From positions 62,001 through 126,000 of the forward strand of contig NZ_QPJE01000002.1 in NCBI RefSeq assembly GCF_003337245.1: a stretch of DNA of 64,000 bases. Reading direction: 5' to 3'. The notes under the pieces are model-generated. The model had not been told where the DNA came from. It was given only the letters and a program-made list of their open reading frames with translations, and made no database searches. Position 1 is the stretch's first letter; the number at the start of each line of letters is the position of its first letter. Source of the stretch: Halanaerobium sp. MA284_MarDTE_T2 (GTDB lineage Bacteria; Bacillota; Halanaerobiia; Halanaerobiales; Halanaerobiaceae). A program made the position numbers and the translations under genes. Below are positions 46,508 to 58,923 of the stretch, piece by piece.

Positions 46508-47400
46508 TTTAGATCATCTCTTTTACTTAGAGTTTCAGCCATGATTTCAGCCATCTGAGTTAGATTACCCAAATAATTTTCTGCAAGTGGATCAAGCTGA
46601 ATCACTTTCCCACCAATCTCTTCTGCCACTGCTCTCGATTTTTTGCTGTCAATTTCAGATTGATAAAAGACTGTTTTTATATTTTCTTTTCTTGCTTCAT
46701 CAATTATTTTTTGTATCTGTCTTGGCCCTGGTTCTTTTCCGTGATCTTCTATAGTTATCATTTCCAGATTGTAGTGATCGGTAAAATAACCTATTGATGG
46801 ATGATATACAAGAATTTTTTCTCCTTTATATTTTGCAAGAAGTTTTTTATTTCTTCTGTCAGCTTCTTTAATTTTTTTAATATAACTGTCAGCATTTTTT
46901 ATAAAAAAATCTTTTTTTTCAGGCATTAATTCTGCCAGTTCTTCTGCCATTATATTTACCATATAGGCTGACCTTAATGGTGAAAGCCAGATATGTGGAT
47001 CTCTTCCTCCATCTTTGAAAACTCTTGGGGGGAATTTTTTGTCAACAGCTTCAAATAATTTTACTATTTTTAAATTACCACTCAGTTCTTCTGCTTGTGG
47101 CAGGATATTCTGTATATCTGCCGGTACACCTATAGAAAAATATATTTCTGCTTCCGAAAAATCCCTGATTTCTTGAGGAGCAGGTGCATAATTTGCCGGG
47201 CTGTATCCTGGAGGAACCATTACAAAAGAATCAACCTCTCCACCTGCAACAGCATTTAACATCTCTTTCTGAGGTGCTATCGTAAGAGCAGCAGCCGGTT
47301 TTTCTGAAACAGCTCCGGAAATAATACTGGAACTAAAAAATAACATAATTATTCCCAAAAGCATAACATATAAATAATTATAATATCTATTCTTTCTCAA
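46504..47400 (-). CDS. znuA: Metal-binding lipoprotein-like receptor, ZnuA family
   Basis: A cluster A-I solute-binding protein of about 298 residues. The TTG at 47400 overlaps the stop of the DUF445 gene and gives a signal sequence (YNYLYVMLLGIIMLFFSSSIISGAVS). No lipobox Cys is seen, so it may remain membrane-anchored by the uncleaved segment. The metal ligands expected in the fold include His in PHIWLSP, His in VYHPSIGYF and acidic residues near QSEIDSKKS. There is no long His-rich loop, so Zn versus Mn is open. Confidence 0.85.
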   Translation of the reverse strand: MRKNRYYNYLYVMLLGIIMLFFSSSIISGAVSEKPAAALTIAPQKEMLNAVAGGEVDSFVMVPPGYSPANYAPAPQEIRDFSEAEIYFSIGVPADIQNILPQAEELSGNLKIVKLFEAVDKKFPPRVFKDGGRDPHIWLSPLRSAYMVNIMAEELAELMPEKKDFFIKNADSYIKKIKEADRRNKKLLAKYKGEKILVYHPSIGYFTDHYNLEMITIEDHGKEPGPRQIQKIIDEARKENIKTVFYQSEIDSKKSRAVAEEIGGKVIQLDPLAENYLGNLTQMAEIMAETLSKRDDLK

Positions 47401-50400
47401 AACAAACCACCTTCTTCGATTATGTTTTTTAGCAAAATCTGAATCACTCCAAATATGCCTCCAAACCATCCATACTGTTTTAAATGCGAAAAATATTTTC
47501 CAGCAAAACTGTTGAACATTGCTTCAATCTCAGCTGGATCCATTGCTTTAACCTGATTAGTGGCCATTTCTTTAATTTTAACACTATTAAACAGTGAAAT
47601 GATATTGTTTTCCAGACTGTCAAATCCTGCCATTAAAAACAGTTTAGCAAAATAATTAAATGTTATATAAGAACCTCTATCATTAAAATAATTTATCAGA
47701 GAGAGGGTCTCTTTTTCCAAAATATTATTAATATCAGTCTGGAATTTTTTATCTTCAGTCAAATCTCTAATTTTTTTTAGTATTTCATTTAAATGTTCAG
47801 CACTAATGATTACTGATTCATCACTTCTTTCCAGATCAATATCTGAAAAGAAATTATTTATGCATTTATTTGTAGACAAAAATCTAATGTTTGCTGATAT
47901 ATTTTTCAGCACAGATTTTATATTATCTCTACTGAATAAATAATTTTCTCCTTCTGCAATTTCTTTAAATAGACCCTGAACAAAATATTTATGCAAAAAG
48001 TTCTCGAGCTCTATTTTATCAATATCAAATATTAATCTAATTAAAGTATCATCACTGTCTTTTAATAGTTCTGCAGTGATTTTTTCTATCTCTACTCTGT
48101 TTTTTGCAAAAAACTCATCTATAAATTTATCTCCTCTACTGGAAGTCATTAAATTAATTAAAGAATCTGCAGCATTAAAATTATTTATATAAAGGTTTTT
48201 TTTAGATTCCCGTGCTTTCTGAAAAACTTTCTCTACAATATTTTGTATATTACTTTCTTCTTCCTGCAGAAATTTATCCAACCTTCGCTCATTAATCCTC
48301 ATTAAAGTATTCTGCAAAAACTCATCCAGATCTGCAAAATAAATTGCACCTGACATAAGCGTATTTTCAATAATTCCCGTTCTTTTTCTTTTTTCTCTTT
48401 CAATTAGCTCTTCCATCTTTTCTTTGAGAATCTCTGCTATATAAGACATATTCTGCTGAACCAGACTGTTCAGAGTAGAAAGTTTTATTTCAGAAAGAAA
48501 TCTTTCAGCTCTATTTAAAAGATCAATATTAAAAAATTCATATTTTATATTTTTCGGAAGAATATATTTTATTACATCTCCTGCTGCACCGCTCAACAAT
48601 AATTTCTGTACATCACGGCTGTATAAATTCCAGCTGTTCCTCTGAGGAATAATTTTGTTTAATTGTTTATTACTAATATTTAAATTTTTAAATAACTCTC
48701 TGCTATAAATATGTTCCAGACTGCCGCTTGCAAACTGTAATATACTATCAATATCCTGCTGTGATAAATAATCAGCAGTTTTTCTGACTGCAAATTCAGA
48801 AATAAATTCAACACTTCTATCTTCATCATTAAACTGATAATTATCTATAAAAGATTTAATTATTTCCATTATTTTTCTGGAAATAAGACCTGAATTATCC
48901 GCAAGAAAGCTGTATACAGCTGCAAAATTATCTTCCTCAAGCTGAGACAGTAATTCTTCTGTTAATCTATCTCTATTATCATTTATTAAAGAAGCAGTCG
49001 AACCCGATTCCAGAAGTTCTCTATCCACAAAATAACCCATTGATTCTGCAAATCTGTACCTGTTTTTGGCAACAATTCCAGGTGAAAACGGAATAGAAAT
49101 TCCTGCTAAATATTTTTTCTCATATGGATGAAAAATCATCCATAGAGCAATAACGTTTGTAAGCCATCCTACTCCACCATAAATAAAAGCTGAGCTTAAA
49201 TATTCGATCCATAGTGATGAACTGGTAGAAATTAAAGAAAGTTCTGGTGCAAATACAGAAAATAGACCACCAACTACAGCACCTAAAAATCCACCAAGAT
49301 AAGTAATTGGCTTAAGTTCTTTCCCGATAAAATCTTCCAGTGCTGACTGGACTTCTCTATCGCTGAGCTTATTTAAATTGGCTGAAACTGTCTCTTTAAT
49401 CTTTCCTTCAAGAAATTCCGGAATATTTACATAGAGAACTTCTAAAATAAAATCACTAATTTCTGAAGCAGTTTTTTCTTCTTTTCTTAGTAGATCATAA
49501 AAATTGATCAGCTCTTTCTTTTTTAATCCTTCCCGTTGCTCAGCAAAAAATTTATCCAAAAATTGTTCGACGGACTTTTTGGCTTTTTGGATACTTAAAA
49601 ACTGATTATTTTCCATATCTAAATTTTTTCTAAAAACTGCAGTAAAATTATTTATTATACTTTTATTTTTCAGCTGCATGAACTTTATTATCTGTGATGA
49701 GTAAAACTCTATATTATTTTCAATCAGTGAAGAAAAATCTGCTTTCTCAATACTAAGTGCAAAAATATAATCAGTTACTCTATTAATATTCTTTGGATCT
49801 TCAAGCAACTCCTCAAGCATATCAGGCATTTTTTCTGATATCTTTTTTTTGCTGTTTTTTATTTTATCTTTTTTGAATAGTTCTGGAAAAATTTCTGAGA
49901 TCTTACTATTATATTTTTGAGAAAGCAGAGAAATTAATTTCTCTTTATCATAATTTATACTTTCAAAGTCTAAATATTTCTCATCAATTTTTTGGCTGCT
50001 TAGATGATTCAAAATACGGCTGCTTAATTTTTTTAAATCATCCTGCTTTAAATTATCCAGATAATTTAACAGCAGTGCTGAAGGAGAATTATCTGCTGTC
50101 ATATTTTTTCTGTAGTGAGAATAGATCGATTCTCGACTTAATTTTTTTAAACCTGAAGATGATTCTATTTCTTCTGCAAAAATTTCGAAAATAAAGGAGT
50201 TTATTTTATCATCTTTCTCAATTATAAAGTTTTTTATTTCTTCCCGAAAAAACTTTAGTATTACAATTATATCTGCTTCGATCTTTTTTTTCTGTTCTTT
50301 ATTTAATAAATCCGAAAATGAACTGCTGGATTCCAAAAGAAAATCTTTTAAATTGCTGCTCAGATTTTTTTCTATATCTGAAAAATCATCCGAAAAAATA

Positions 50401-51173
50401 AACTTTTCTATTTCTGCAGGATCATTTAATATACAGTTTATTCTTTTATTTTCCAGCTGTTCAAAAAAATCCTCAATCGTTTTATCCAGATCAAATAAAT
50501 TTAATAAATCTGTTAAAAAGTTTGATTCATCTGCAGTTTTTTCCTTTTTTATTGTTTCTATTAGCTGTAAAATATTTTCTTTGAAATCATCCTTAAATTT
50601 TTGCCCAGTCATATCCTCTATTCGATAGTCTTTTAAATCATCAAATAGCGAAAATAGGATCTTAATAAAAAAATCTCTGTCATCCATTTTTTTTACAAAA
50701 AAATTATACATCTCCAGAAATATATTTTCCAATTCCTGCTCATTTAACAGCAGTTTAAAATCAAAATTACTGCGGAAAGTTGATAGAATATCTCCAACAA
50801 AATCACTGCTTTCTCTGCAGATAAATTCTGCCAGCAGATCCATATTTTCTTCAAAAGCCGGTATTTCACCAATTTTAACCTTACCTGTTCTCCGGTACAG
50901 ATATTTTCCATAAAAATCCTCTATCATTTTTTTGAAATTATTTTTGAACTCTTTACGAGAAAACTCTTCTTTTAGAAGCTGTTTATCTATCAGCTCATTT
51001 TCAACTAAATCTGCGATACTTGCTATAAATTCATCTCTGGTTTTTAATACAATTCCGCCAAAGGGCCCGTATTTTTTAAATATCATCTTTAAAGCCAGAT
51101 TATTTGTCAGATATCCAGTTAAAGCACCTGAAAGAACTCCTGCAGCTGCAGTATATATCTCATTTACAGCCAT
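47397..51173 (-). CDS. Giant DUF445-family membrane protein, internally duplicated
   Basis: A 1258-residue protein; ordinary DUF445 (YheB-type) proteins are about 400. Two copies of the membrane motif are visible. The N-terminal copy is GVLSGALTGYLTNNLALKMIF near residues 12-32. The central copy is GGVGWLTNVIALWMIFHPYE near 665, preceded by another hydrophobic segment (LGGFLGAVVGGLFSVFAPEL). A C-terminal segment GWFGGIFGVIQILLKNI ends the protein. The regions between are long, charged and helical, probably coiled coils. It overlaps znuA by 4 bp, so it leads the metal-transport operon. Confidence 0.8.
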   Translation of the reverse strand: MAVNEIYTAAAGVLSGALTGYLTNNLALKMIFKKYGPFGGIVLKTRDEFIASIADLVENELIDKQLLKEEFSRKEFKNNFKKMIEDFYGKYLYRRTGKVKIGEIPAFEENMDLLAEFICRESSDFVGDILSTFRSNFDFKLLLNEQELENIFLEMYNFFVKKMDDRDFFIKILFSLFDDLKDYRIEDMTGQKFKDDFKENILQLIETIKKEKTADESNFLTDLLNLFDLDKTIEDFFEQLENKRINCILNDPAEIEKFIFSDDFSDIEKNLSSNLKDFLLESSSSFSDLLNKEQKKKIEADIIVILKFFREEIKNFIIEKDDKINSFIFEIFAEEIESSSGLKKLSRESIYSHYRKNMTADNSPSALLLNYLDNLKQDDLKKLSSRILNHLSSQKIDEKYLDFESINYDKEKLISLLSQKYNSKISEIFPELFKKDKIKNSKKKISEKMPDMLEELLEDPKNINRVTDYIFALSIEKADFSSLIENNIEFYSSQIIKFMQLKNKSIINNFTAVFRKNLDMENNQFLSIQKAKKSVEQFLDKFFAEQREGLKKKELINFYDLLRKEEKTASEISDFILEVLYVNIPEFLEGKIKETVSANLNKLSDREVQSALEDFIGKELKPITYLGGFLGAVVGGLFSVFAPELSLISTSSSLWIEYLSSAFIYGGVGWLTNVIALWMIFHPYEKKYLAGISIPFSPGIVAKNRYRFAESMGYFVDRELLESGSTASLINDNRDRLTEELLSQLEEDNFAAVYSFLADNSGLISRKIMEIIKSFIDNYQFNDEDRSVEFISEFAVRKTADYLSQQDIDSILQFASGSLEHIYSRELFKNLNISNKQLNKIIPQRNSWNLYSRDVQKLLLSGAAGDVIKYILPKNIKYEFFNIDLLNRAERFLSEIKLSTLNSLVQQNMSYIAEILKEKMEELIEREKRKRTGIIENTLMSGAIYFADLDEFLQNTLMRINERRLDKFLQEEESNIQNIVEKVFQKARESKKNLYINNFNAADSLINLMTSSRGDKFIDEFFAKNRVEIEKITAELLKDSDDTLIRLIFDIDKIELENFLHKYFVQGLFKEIAEGENYLFSRDNIKSVLKNISANIRFLSTNKCINNFFSDIDLERSDESVIISAEHLNEILKKIRDLTEDKKFQTDINNILEKETLSLINYFNDRGSYITFNYFAKLFLMAGFDSLENNIISLFNSVKIKEMATNQVKAMDPAEIEAMFNSFAGKYFSHLKQYGWFGGIFGVIQILLKNIIEEGGLF

Positions 51174-51282
51174 TTTTTAAAACACCTTTTATATTTTTTA
51201 TTATAACAAATCTGCAGAAATTATTATTTTTCATAAAGCCCACCTCTTTAAAAACAGTAATCGTTAATAGTAATTATTTTTG

Positions 51283-51394
51283 ATATCCACAAATTGTTGA
51301 TAACTTGTGAATAACTATATTATCCACAGTATTTGTTAATATATACTATTTTTTTGTGGATAAAACACATGTTTTGTGTACAAATTGTGGATAA
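51283..51394. promoter_or_regulatory. Cluster of six DnaA-box-like sites
   Basis: Three perfect TTATCCACA/TGTGGATAA 9-mers lie at 51320-51328, 51355-51363 and 51386-51394. Three one-mismatch boxes lie at 51283-51291, 51295-51303 and 51306-51314. A very AT-rich stretch (51329-51354) separates them. The region is non-coding. It may be an origin, part of an origin, or a DnaA-titrating or regulatory cluster. No dnaA or dnaN is present in the window. Confidence 0.65.
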
Positions 51395-51475
51395 CTTTCA
51401 TTTTGTGTAGTTTTTTCTAAAATTTGTCCACCCTTGAACCATCCCACGTGCTCTGCTAACAGACTTTAACTTCTA

Positions 51476-52372
51476 TCACTGGTGAACTGATTCAGGATCA
51501 ACATGAACAAGAACATCTTTAAAATCTTTTTCTACATCCATTATATTTCTTTTAACTTTAGCTGCAATGTCATGTCCTTCTCCAACTGTAAGATTATCAT
51601 CAACCACAATTATTATATCCGCAATAAATTTTGGCCCATAACTTCTTATTTTTATTTCCTCAACCTCAATTACACCGGAAACATTTTGGGATAATTTTTT
51701 TATTTGTTCTATTTTCCCTTCTTCCGGTAAACCATCCATCAGCTCATTAGAAGAGTCTCTCATTATTTCATAGCCTACCTTTAATATCAATACAGCTACA
51801 ACAAAACCAGCCAAGGGATCAAGATACCAGAATCCAAGTTTAGCTCCCCCTATACCAATTAGTGCTGCAACAGATGAAAGTGCATCAGAGCGGTGGTGAT
51901 GTGCATCTGCAATTAATCCTCTGCTGTTTATTTTTTTTCCAATTTTAATTGTATATCTGTAAAGTATTTCCTTGCTAATAATAGAAATAAAAGCAATTAT
52001 TAAAGCAATAGTGCCGGGGATAATGATTTCTCTTTCCATAAGTGAATAAACAGCATCTCTTGCCAGTAAAAAACCAGTCAGCAGAAGAATAACAGATAAA
52101 ATGTTGGTTCCCAGAGCTTCAGCTTTTTCGTGGCCGTATGGATGATTGCTGTCAGCAGGAGCTTTTGAAAATTTGATGCTGAACATTACAATAATAGTGG
52201 ATGCCATATCAGAAAAAGAATGAAATCCATCTGCAATCAGTGCCTTACTGTTAGCAGTATAACCAACTATAATTTTTAAAGCAGCAAGTAATAGGTTTGT
52301 AATCAAACTGATTATGCTTATTCTTTTTCCTTCCTGATAGCGCAATTCTTCATTTTTCATATAATCACTCAC
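51476..52372 (-). CDS. Cation diffusion facilitator (metal efflux) protein
   Basis: A 298-residue CDF/FieF-type antiporter. Six hydrophobic segments are visible. The transport-site motifs are ALIADGFHSFSDMAST (TM2) and GLIADAHHHRSDALSS (TM5), with the expected Asp/His residues. A cytoplasmic C-terminal domain follows (about 210-298), ending in VHVDPESVH. It exports Zn2+, Fe2+ or Mn2+ in relatives. It lies next to a metal-import operon. Confidence 0.92.
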   Translation of the reverse strand: MSDYMKNEELRYQEGKRISIISLITNLLLAALKIIVGYTANSKALIADGFHSFSDMASTIIVMFSIKFSKAPADSNHPYGHEKAEALGTNILSVILLLTGFLLARDAVYSLMEREIIIPGTIALIIAFISIISKEILYRYTIKIGKKINSRGLIADAHHHRSDALSSVAALIGIGGAKLGFWYLDPLAGFVVAVLILKVGYEIMRDSSNELMDGLPEEGKIEQIKKLSQNVSGVIEVEEIKIRSYGPKFIADIIIVVDDNLTVGEGHDIAAKVKRNIMDVEKDFKDVLVHVDPESVHQ

Positions 52373-58667: not shown

Positions 58668-58923
58668 TTTGAGCTATTTTGTCAAGAAAAAAATCTGCCG
58701 AAAAACCCGGCAGATTAGTAATAATAATTATTCCTAATAAGGAAATTCTAATTTAATTTTAATCTTGCTTTAATAATTCTTTAATACTGCTGTGCTATTA
58801 TATATTTACACTGTTAATAGCCAGCTGCTCTTTTTCCCTAATTAAAGCAGATACTTATCTGCTTTTACATAGAGATCTTTCCTTCTTGTTTGCCCGGCCT
58901 TATTTTGGAGGCCGGGTTTTTTT
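58668..58923 (+). ncRNA. Candidate plus-strand small RNA ending at a strong terminator
   Basis: The GCCCGGCC/GGCCGGG stem at 58893-58916, with seven T residues to 58923, is a textbook terminator on the plus strand, yet no plus-strand gene precedes it. Upstream lie two more hairpins (TCTGCCG/CGGCAGA at 58694-58714 and AGCAGAT/ATCTGCT near 58847-58863). A TATAAT-like element and the Fur box lie just left of them. On the minus strand the first hairpin has its own T-tract and may instead terminate the reductase transcript. No long open frame is present. Confidence 0.4.

Follow-up and report, generated by a model that had tools for sequence, protein, structure and literature searches.

The window, by which we mean the whole 64,000-nucleotide stretch of Halanaerobium DNA that was analyzed, contains a gap (51174-51475) flanked by a DUF445 gene (47397-51173, minus strand) and a cation-efflux (CDF) gene (51476-52372, minus strand). 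Six DnaA boxes lie within this gap, spread over 51283-51394; three are exact and the other three each have one mismatch, so that the positions, match quality and intergenic placement given by an earlier sequence-only reading of the window stand. Box B1 (ATATCCACA, 51283-51291, plus strand) is the same variant in 10 of the 11 aligned genomes. B2 (TTATCAACA, 51295-51303, minus strand) is an exact TTATCCACA in seven relatives, B3 (TTATTCACA, 51306-51314, minus strand) is weak in most relatives (two to three mismatches) and B4 (TTATCCACA, 51320-51328, plus strand) is TAATCCACA in most of them. An AT-rich spacer (51329-51354) separates B4 from B5 (51355-51363), which together with B6 (51386-51394) forms a pair of exact TTATCCACA boxes on the minus strand, spaced 31 bp apart in the same orientation and invariant in all 11 aligned genomes. 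Abutting B5 and situated between B5 and B6 is a palindrome, AAAACACATGTTTT (51362-51375), which is a candidate LexA/DinR-type site.

The significance of the cluster was assessed with 120 simulated 64-kb sequences generated by dinucleotide Markov models, one set of which was trained on the AT-rich gap itself. The simulations gave at most three boxes (one mismatch or fewer) per 112 bp versus the six of the window. Hence, the cluster is real and far beyond chance. Throughout the window genome, a draft of 2.47 Mb in 69 contigs (99.8% complete), pairs of TTATNCACA no more than 30 bp apart, direct as well as inverted, are confined to the cluster and the region upstream of dnaA, and direct box pairs in the family genomes are almost all found at one or the other of these two places, oriC or the conserved module described below.

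The replication origin is at dnaA

The cluster had been proposed to be an oriC separated from dnaA or one half of a bipartite origin, given that six boxes surround an AT-rich core in an intergenic region near housekeeping genes of origin-proximal type. The gene order reported at 5-22 kb (tadA, dnaX, recR, guaB, tmk, holB, yabA, metG) matches the open reading frames, and the negative GC skew fits an origin to the right of this block, as had been expected. However, dnaA is located on another contig (C33), so the cluster is indeed away from dnaA, and both origin proposals are contradicted by a complete bipartite oriC found there. Eight boxes lie in the 190 bp upstream of dnaA and five more downstream in the dnaA-dnaN gap, where two boxes, GCCCC, TACTACTATTACTAC and an AT-rich stretch follow in series. 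The unwinding element of Bacillus subtilis has the same series of boxes, GC-rich stretch, DnaA-trios and AT-rich region. Its parts are outlined in a review (PMC13220808). A scan pattern of our own devising detected this signature in the dnaA-dnaN gaps of the window genome and of relatives G004 and G002, whereas the same scan found no GC-rich stretch plus DnaA-trio run at the cluster.

GC skew gave the same answer. On the contig of the window (C2), 165 kb (save 2 kb) was examined in 10-kb bins, and the skew of each bin was either negative or close to zero. In the complete genome of relative G004 the sign changes at the record start, the position of dnaA, from -0.19 to +0.22, and no switch occurs at the module 153 kb away, where the skew stays steady. 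A local comparison in G002 was alike, with opposite signs on either side of dnaA and a single sign around the module. Of the attributes of an oriC, the module thus has multiple boxes, and neither a skew switch nor the unwinding-element series was found at it. The cluster is neither oriC nor half of oriC, and an assignment of either kind is hardly credible.

The module is close to the origin in both relatives with complete genomes: 153 kb to the left in G004 (5.8% of the chromosome) and 219 kb to the right in G002 (9.5%). It therefore occupies opposite replichores in these two genomes, yet has the same orientation to the fork. In the window genome, 57 kb separates the module from the contig end, so its distance to oriC is no less than that.

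Conservation of the module in the Halanaerobiaceae

The cluster is part of a conserved module (51257-51398, plus strand; G000:C2:113257-113398), delimited by a family profile match and by alignment, the best-conserved core of which spans 51272-51394. The module is present at the same locus in all 14 Halanaerobiaceae genomes examined (Halanaerobium and kin, three genera). The profile was built from sequence alone using 11 of the 14 genomes, that of the window included, and gave E-values of 5.9e-26 for the window and 1e-24 to 1e-35 for the 13 relatives; the three genomes outside the training set (G005, G010 and G013) score equally well. About 120 bp align column by column across the relatives and the flanks do not. 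Core identity of relatives to the window is 62-74%, with a mean of 85% among Halanaerobium, versus 73% for the adjoining cation-efflux gene within Halanaerobium (51% at third positions). The conservation extends beyond the boxes, in that 39 of the 76 non-box core columns are identical in at least 10 of 11 genomes. An exact-pattern scan of 84,980 species genomes, which is independent of the profile and misses some known members, gave matches only in Halanaerobium and one Halanaerobiales MAG. The module was not found outside the Halanaerobiaceae, where the weak profile matches are mostly oriC regions beside dnaA (as in G033, where the contig ends within dnaA), and an Rfam scan of the region gave no match. 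The cluster is a family-wide conserved non-coding element.

One weak profile match, in G021, was rejected because it is a tandem DnaA-box array with a layout unrelated to the module. This array of another family (G021:C42:2940-3003, at a contig end) has exact boxes every 11 bp (TTATCCACAGG repeats).

DnaA-box clusters occur in plasmid origins, and the module could in principle be what remains of the origin of a plasmid or phage that had integrated. We give this idea practically no weight: plasmid and phage collections contained no similar sequence, no replication gene adjoins the module, and its conservation is vertical, the locus being the same in 14 genomes from three genera.

Other box clusters were also seen. 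Three DnaA boxes lie 28 kb to the right of the module (C2:141233-141295; L033:15233-15295), beside a purL-like gene and transposase fragments. In the 400 kb of G004 examined there was no cluster scoring 2.6 or more beyond the module and the dnaA region. Outside the family, in G017, G025 and G019 (L195:1412-1615, L196:1314-1560 and L197:1134-1415), box clusters consisting of a 20-bp-spaced pair plus others are found 0.6-1.7 kb upstream of lexA and adjoin a palindrome, TTCGCAAAAT...ATTTTGCGAA, which is possibly dif. For G017 and G025, whose genomes are complete, the clusters map to ~48% and ~53% of the chromosome, on the terminus side.

Genes beside the module

The DUF445 gene is the constant downstream neighbor of the module, although in most relatives corA stands between the two. 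Next after DUF445 usually comes znuABC, which is absent in G004. On the other side, the cluster is beside the cation-efflux gene in relatives where that gene is adjacent, but the gene has been lost from the locus in G005 and G010. Thus, the module stays while corA, znuABC, a GGDEF-HD gene or the cation-efflux gene come and go on either side. The GGDEF-HD gene, a PAS-GGDEF-HD gene between the module and the cation-efflux gene, is present in most Halanaerobium (L035:7636-9486 and equivalents) and absent in the window, G001 and G002.

This arrangement raises the main alternative to a role in replication, namely that the main role of DnaA at this locus is in transcription. The cluster would then be the operator for the leftward operon, which consists of corA (where present), DUF445 and usually znuABC, with the anaerobic ribonucleotide reductase genes nrdDG further down, and operon expression would track the activity of DnaA or the state of replication. 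In B. subtilis, DnaA is well established as a transcription factor (PMC4447404). In all genomes with flank sequence the module is immediately upstream of the operon, with 5 to ~140 bp between its left edge and the first open reading frame (closest, ~5 bp, in G003, G004 and G006). In G004 nrdD follows DUF445 directly, and in the window it is ~6.5 kb downstream. As the module adjoins the operon start, transcription control alone could explain its conservation. Several observations argue the other way. Neither the identity of the first gene (DUF445 or corA) nor its distance from the module is constant, the sole gene that is always downstream, DUF445, is without an assigned function, and no strong promoter was found (four weak matches versus 2.6 expected in shuffles), the TATAAT-like site of the window lying to the left of the module. 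We regard an operator role as possible but rather doubtful; it may also coexist with titration of DnaA.

Because znuABC lies downstream, a Fur-family box was considered for the AT-rich motif at the left edge of the module (TAATNATAATCATT in relatives). This candidate was dropped, since in the window genome, and in G005 and G010 too, the motif falls short of full symmetry. The same motif was rejected as DnaA-trios, given its wrong distance from a correctly oriented box and the lack of a GC-rich stretch. Elsewhere in the window, at 58720, a Fur-like palindrome (AATRATNATYATT) lies ~140 bp upstream of a DtxR-like regulator gene, which is followed by feoA- and feoB-like genes. The nrdD open frame of G004 (G004:C1, L157) is 1076 aa versus 680 aa in the window, the extra length likely being an intein or other insertion.

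A palindrome common to the module and oriC

The module resembles the dnaA-upstream half of oriC. In the window genome both carry an inverted box pair offset by 12 bp (TATCCACAAATTGTTGATAAC), and the dnaA-upstream cluster of Halanaerobiales often has two boxes, at a spacing of 21-23 bp, that enclose AAAACAnnTGTTTT or a sequence close to it. This oriC palindrome was found between the boxes in families f4, f5 and f7 plus G001 and the window genome, and was not seen in families f2 and f6. The Halanaerobium oriC has kept the box pair and the palindrome is gone, whereas the module carries it. The window genome has the palindrome at both places (the oriC copy with GTCT in the middle) and G001 has it at oriC only. 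Unlike the oriC half, the module is far from dnaA and has no unwinding element nearby, and the distance from the palindrome to its far (left) box is greater by 11 bp, roughly one helical turn.

Given this origin-like box grammar, the AT-rich spacer and the palindrome common to oriC, one can imagine an additional origin, secondary or conditional, that becomes active under stress. The module has no unwinding element and no skew signature, and we consider such an origin very unlikely.

Of the AAAACANNTGTTTT sites, that of the module is the one found again at an unchanged place, in 13 of the 14 genomes. A large regulon for the palindrome was rejected, since AAAACANNTGTTTT occurs one to eight times per family genome versus zero to five for the reversed control. 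The lexA promoters of Halanaerobiales contain arrays of sites such as GTACGTATGTTC and GAACGATTGTTT, several of those in Halanaerobium include AAACAACTGTTT, and G029 has GAACATGAGTTT at the equivalent place in oriC. A LexA matrix trained only on lexA-promoter sites with at least one canonical half gave the window palindrome 15.4 bits, the top score in the window (training median 14.6), although the matrix is not very specific. The G004 module palindrome ranks second in 400 kb; the other high scorers there are mostly in coding sequence, from which the low specificity follows. Moreover, both half-sites of the palindrome are AAAC/GTTT rather than the GAAC/GTTC of LexA sites. The palindrome resembles the LexA boxes of lexA promoters, which we take as a lead rather than an identification. 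A palindrome of the type TTATGCACAGATGAATTCTGTGGATAA was also seen at three separate places in one genome (G019:C10:114061, C17:108353 and C28:203807).

Discussion

In B. subtilis the extra-origin DnaA-box clusters (DBCs) have modest, additive effects. In Escherichia coli datA promotes DnaA-ATP hydrolysis and the DARS core of three boxes releases ADP from DnaA. As described in reviews (PMC5295017, PMC13220808), the DBCs are like the module in being consensus-box clusters outside oriC and origin-proximal, the latter seen for the module in G004 and G002, and a strain lacking six such clusters initiates early (PMC5295017, citing Okumura 2012). The hosts are also alike in having YabA and a bipartite dnaA-linked oriC. 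The module differs from the DBCs, as these are described, in its ordered architecture across three genera, its conserved spacers and the palindrome shared with oriC; it is intergenic, with one dominant cluster per genome versus the six of B. subtilis. The E. coli datA locus is non-coding and has several DnaA boxes near oriC in an arrangement conserved among strains, with an IHF site between boxes (PMC4585315). The module shares these traits, except that its second-protein site is a LexA-like palindrome. It also resembles by description DARS1 and DARS2, non-coding clusters of three to six DnaA boxes with conserved spacing that act on the nucleotide state of DnaA (PMC4585315). The best reading by analogy is that the module belongs with the extra-origin DnaA-box clusters, DBC-like in kind and perhaps datA-like in effect.

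The module very likely binds DnaA. Of the three roles originally put forward, a DnaA-titration site is the best supported and gains from conservation in 14 of 14 genomes; the titration itself is argued by analogy, and it is from the B. subtilis clusters and datA that we infer titration or inactivation of DnaA. We consider it somewhat probable that the Halanaerobiaceae have in the module a dedicated DnaA-binding locus outside the origin, which lowers the DnaA available to oriC and sets initiation timing, the finding of only one such cluster per genome being counted against it. DnaA would load first on the invariant exact pair B5/B6 and spread from there to the weaker boxes B1-B4. As the complex would sit on origin-proximal DNA, duplicated early after initiation, the free or active DnaA for oriC would fall, through titration or through stimulated ATP hydrolysis as at datA, and this decrease would set the timing of initiation.

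The palindrome lying between B5 and B6 may be the site of a second protein, possibly the SOS repressor LexA, through which DNA damage could be coupled to the initiation step. At E. coli uvrB, DnaA and LexA boxes overlap, and at one of its promoters the two proteins compete (PMC6015884). The module is similar in that DnaA boxes are interleaved with a candidate LexA site. However, the uvrB promoter drives an SOS gene, whereas the neighbors of the module are metal transport and DUF445 genes, and the module palindrome is also an oriC element in relatives. That a LexA-linked initiation control element moved in Halanaerobium from oriC to a DnaA-binding locus 0.15-0.2 Mb away is unlikely; if true, a site acting at a distance would tie initiation to the SOS response.

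No paper on Halanaerobium DnaA boxes was found in the literature collection searched, and what appears to be new is a single, ordered, family-wide extra-origin DnaA-box locus that carries an oriC palindrome. It is unsettled whether Gram-positive-type bacteria control initiation via dedicated DnaA-binding loci. A single, strongly conserved, origin-proximal locus found across a whole family offers a clean test case, and the palindrome common to oriC and the module gives a concrete second factor to seek.
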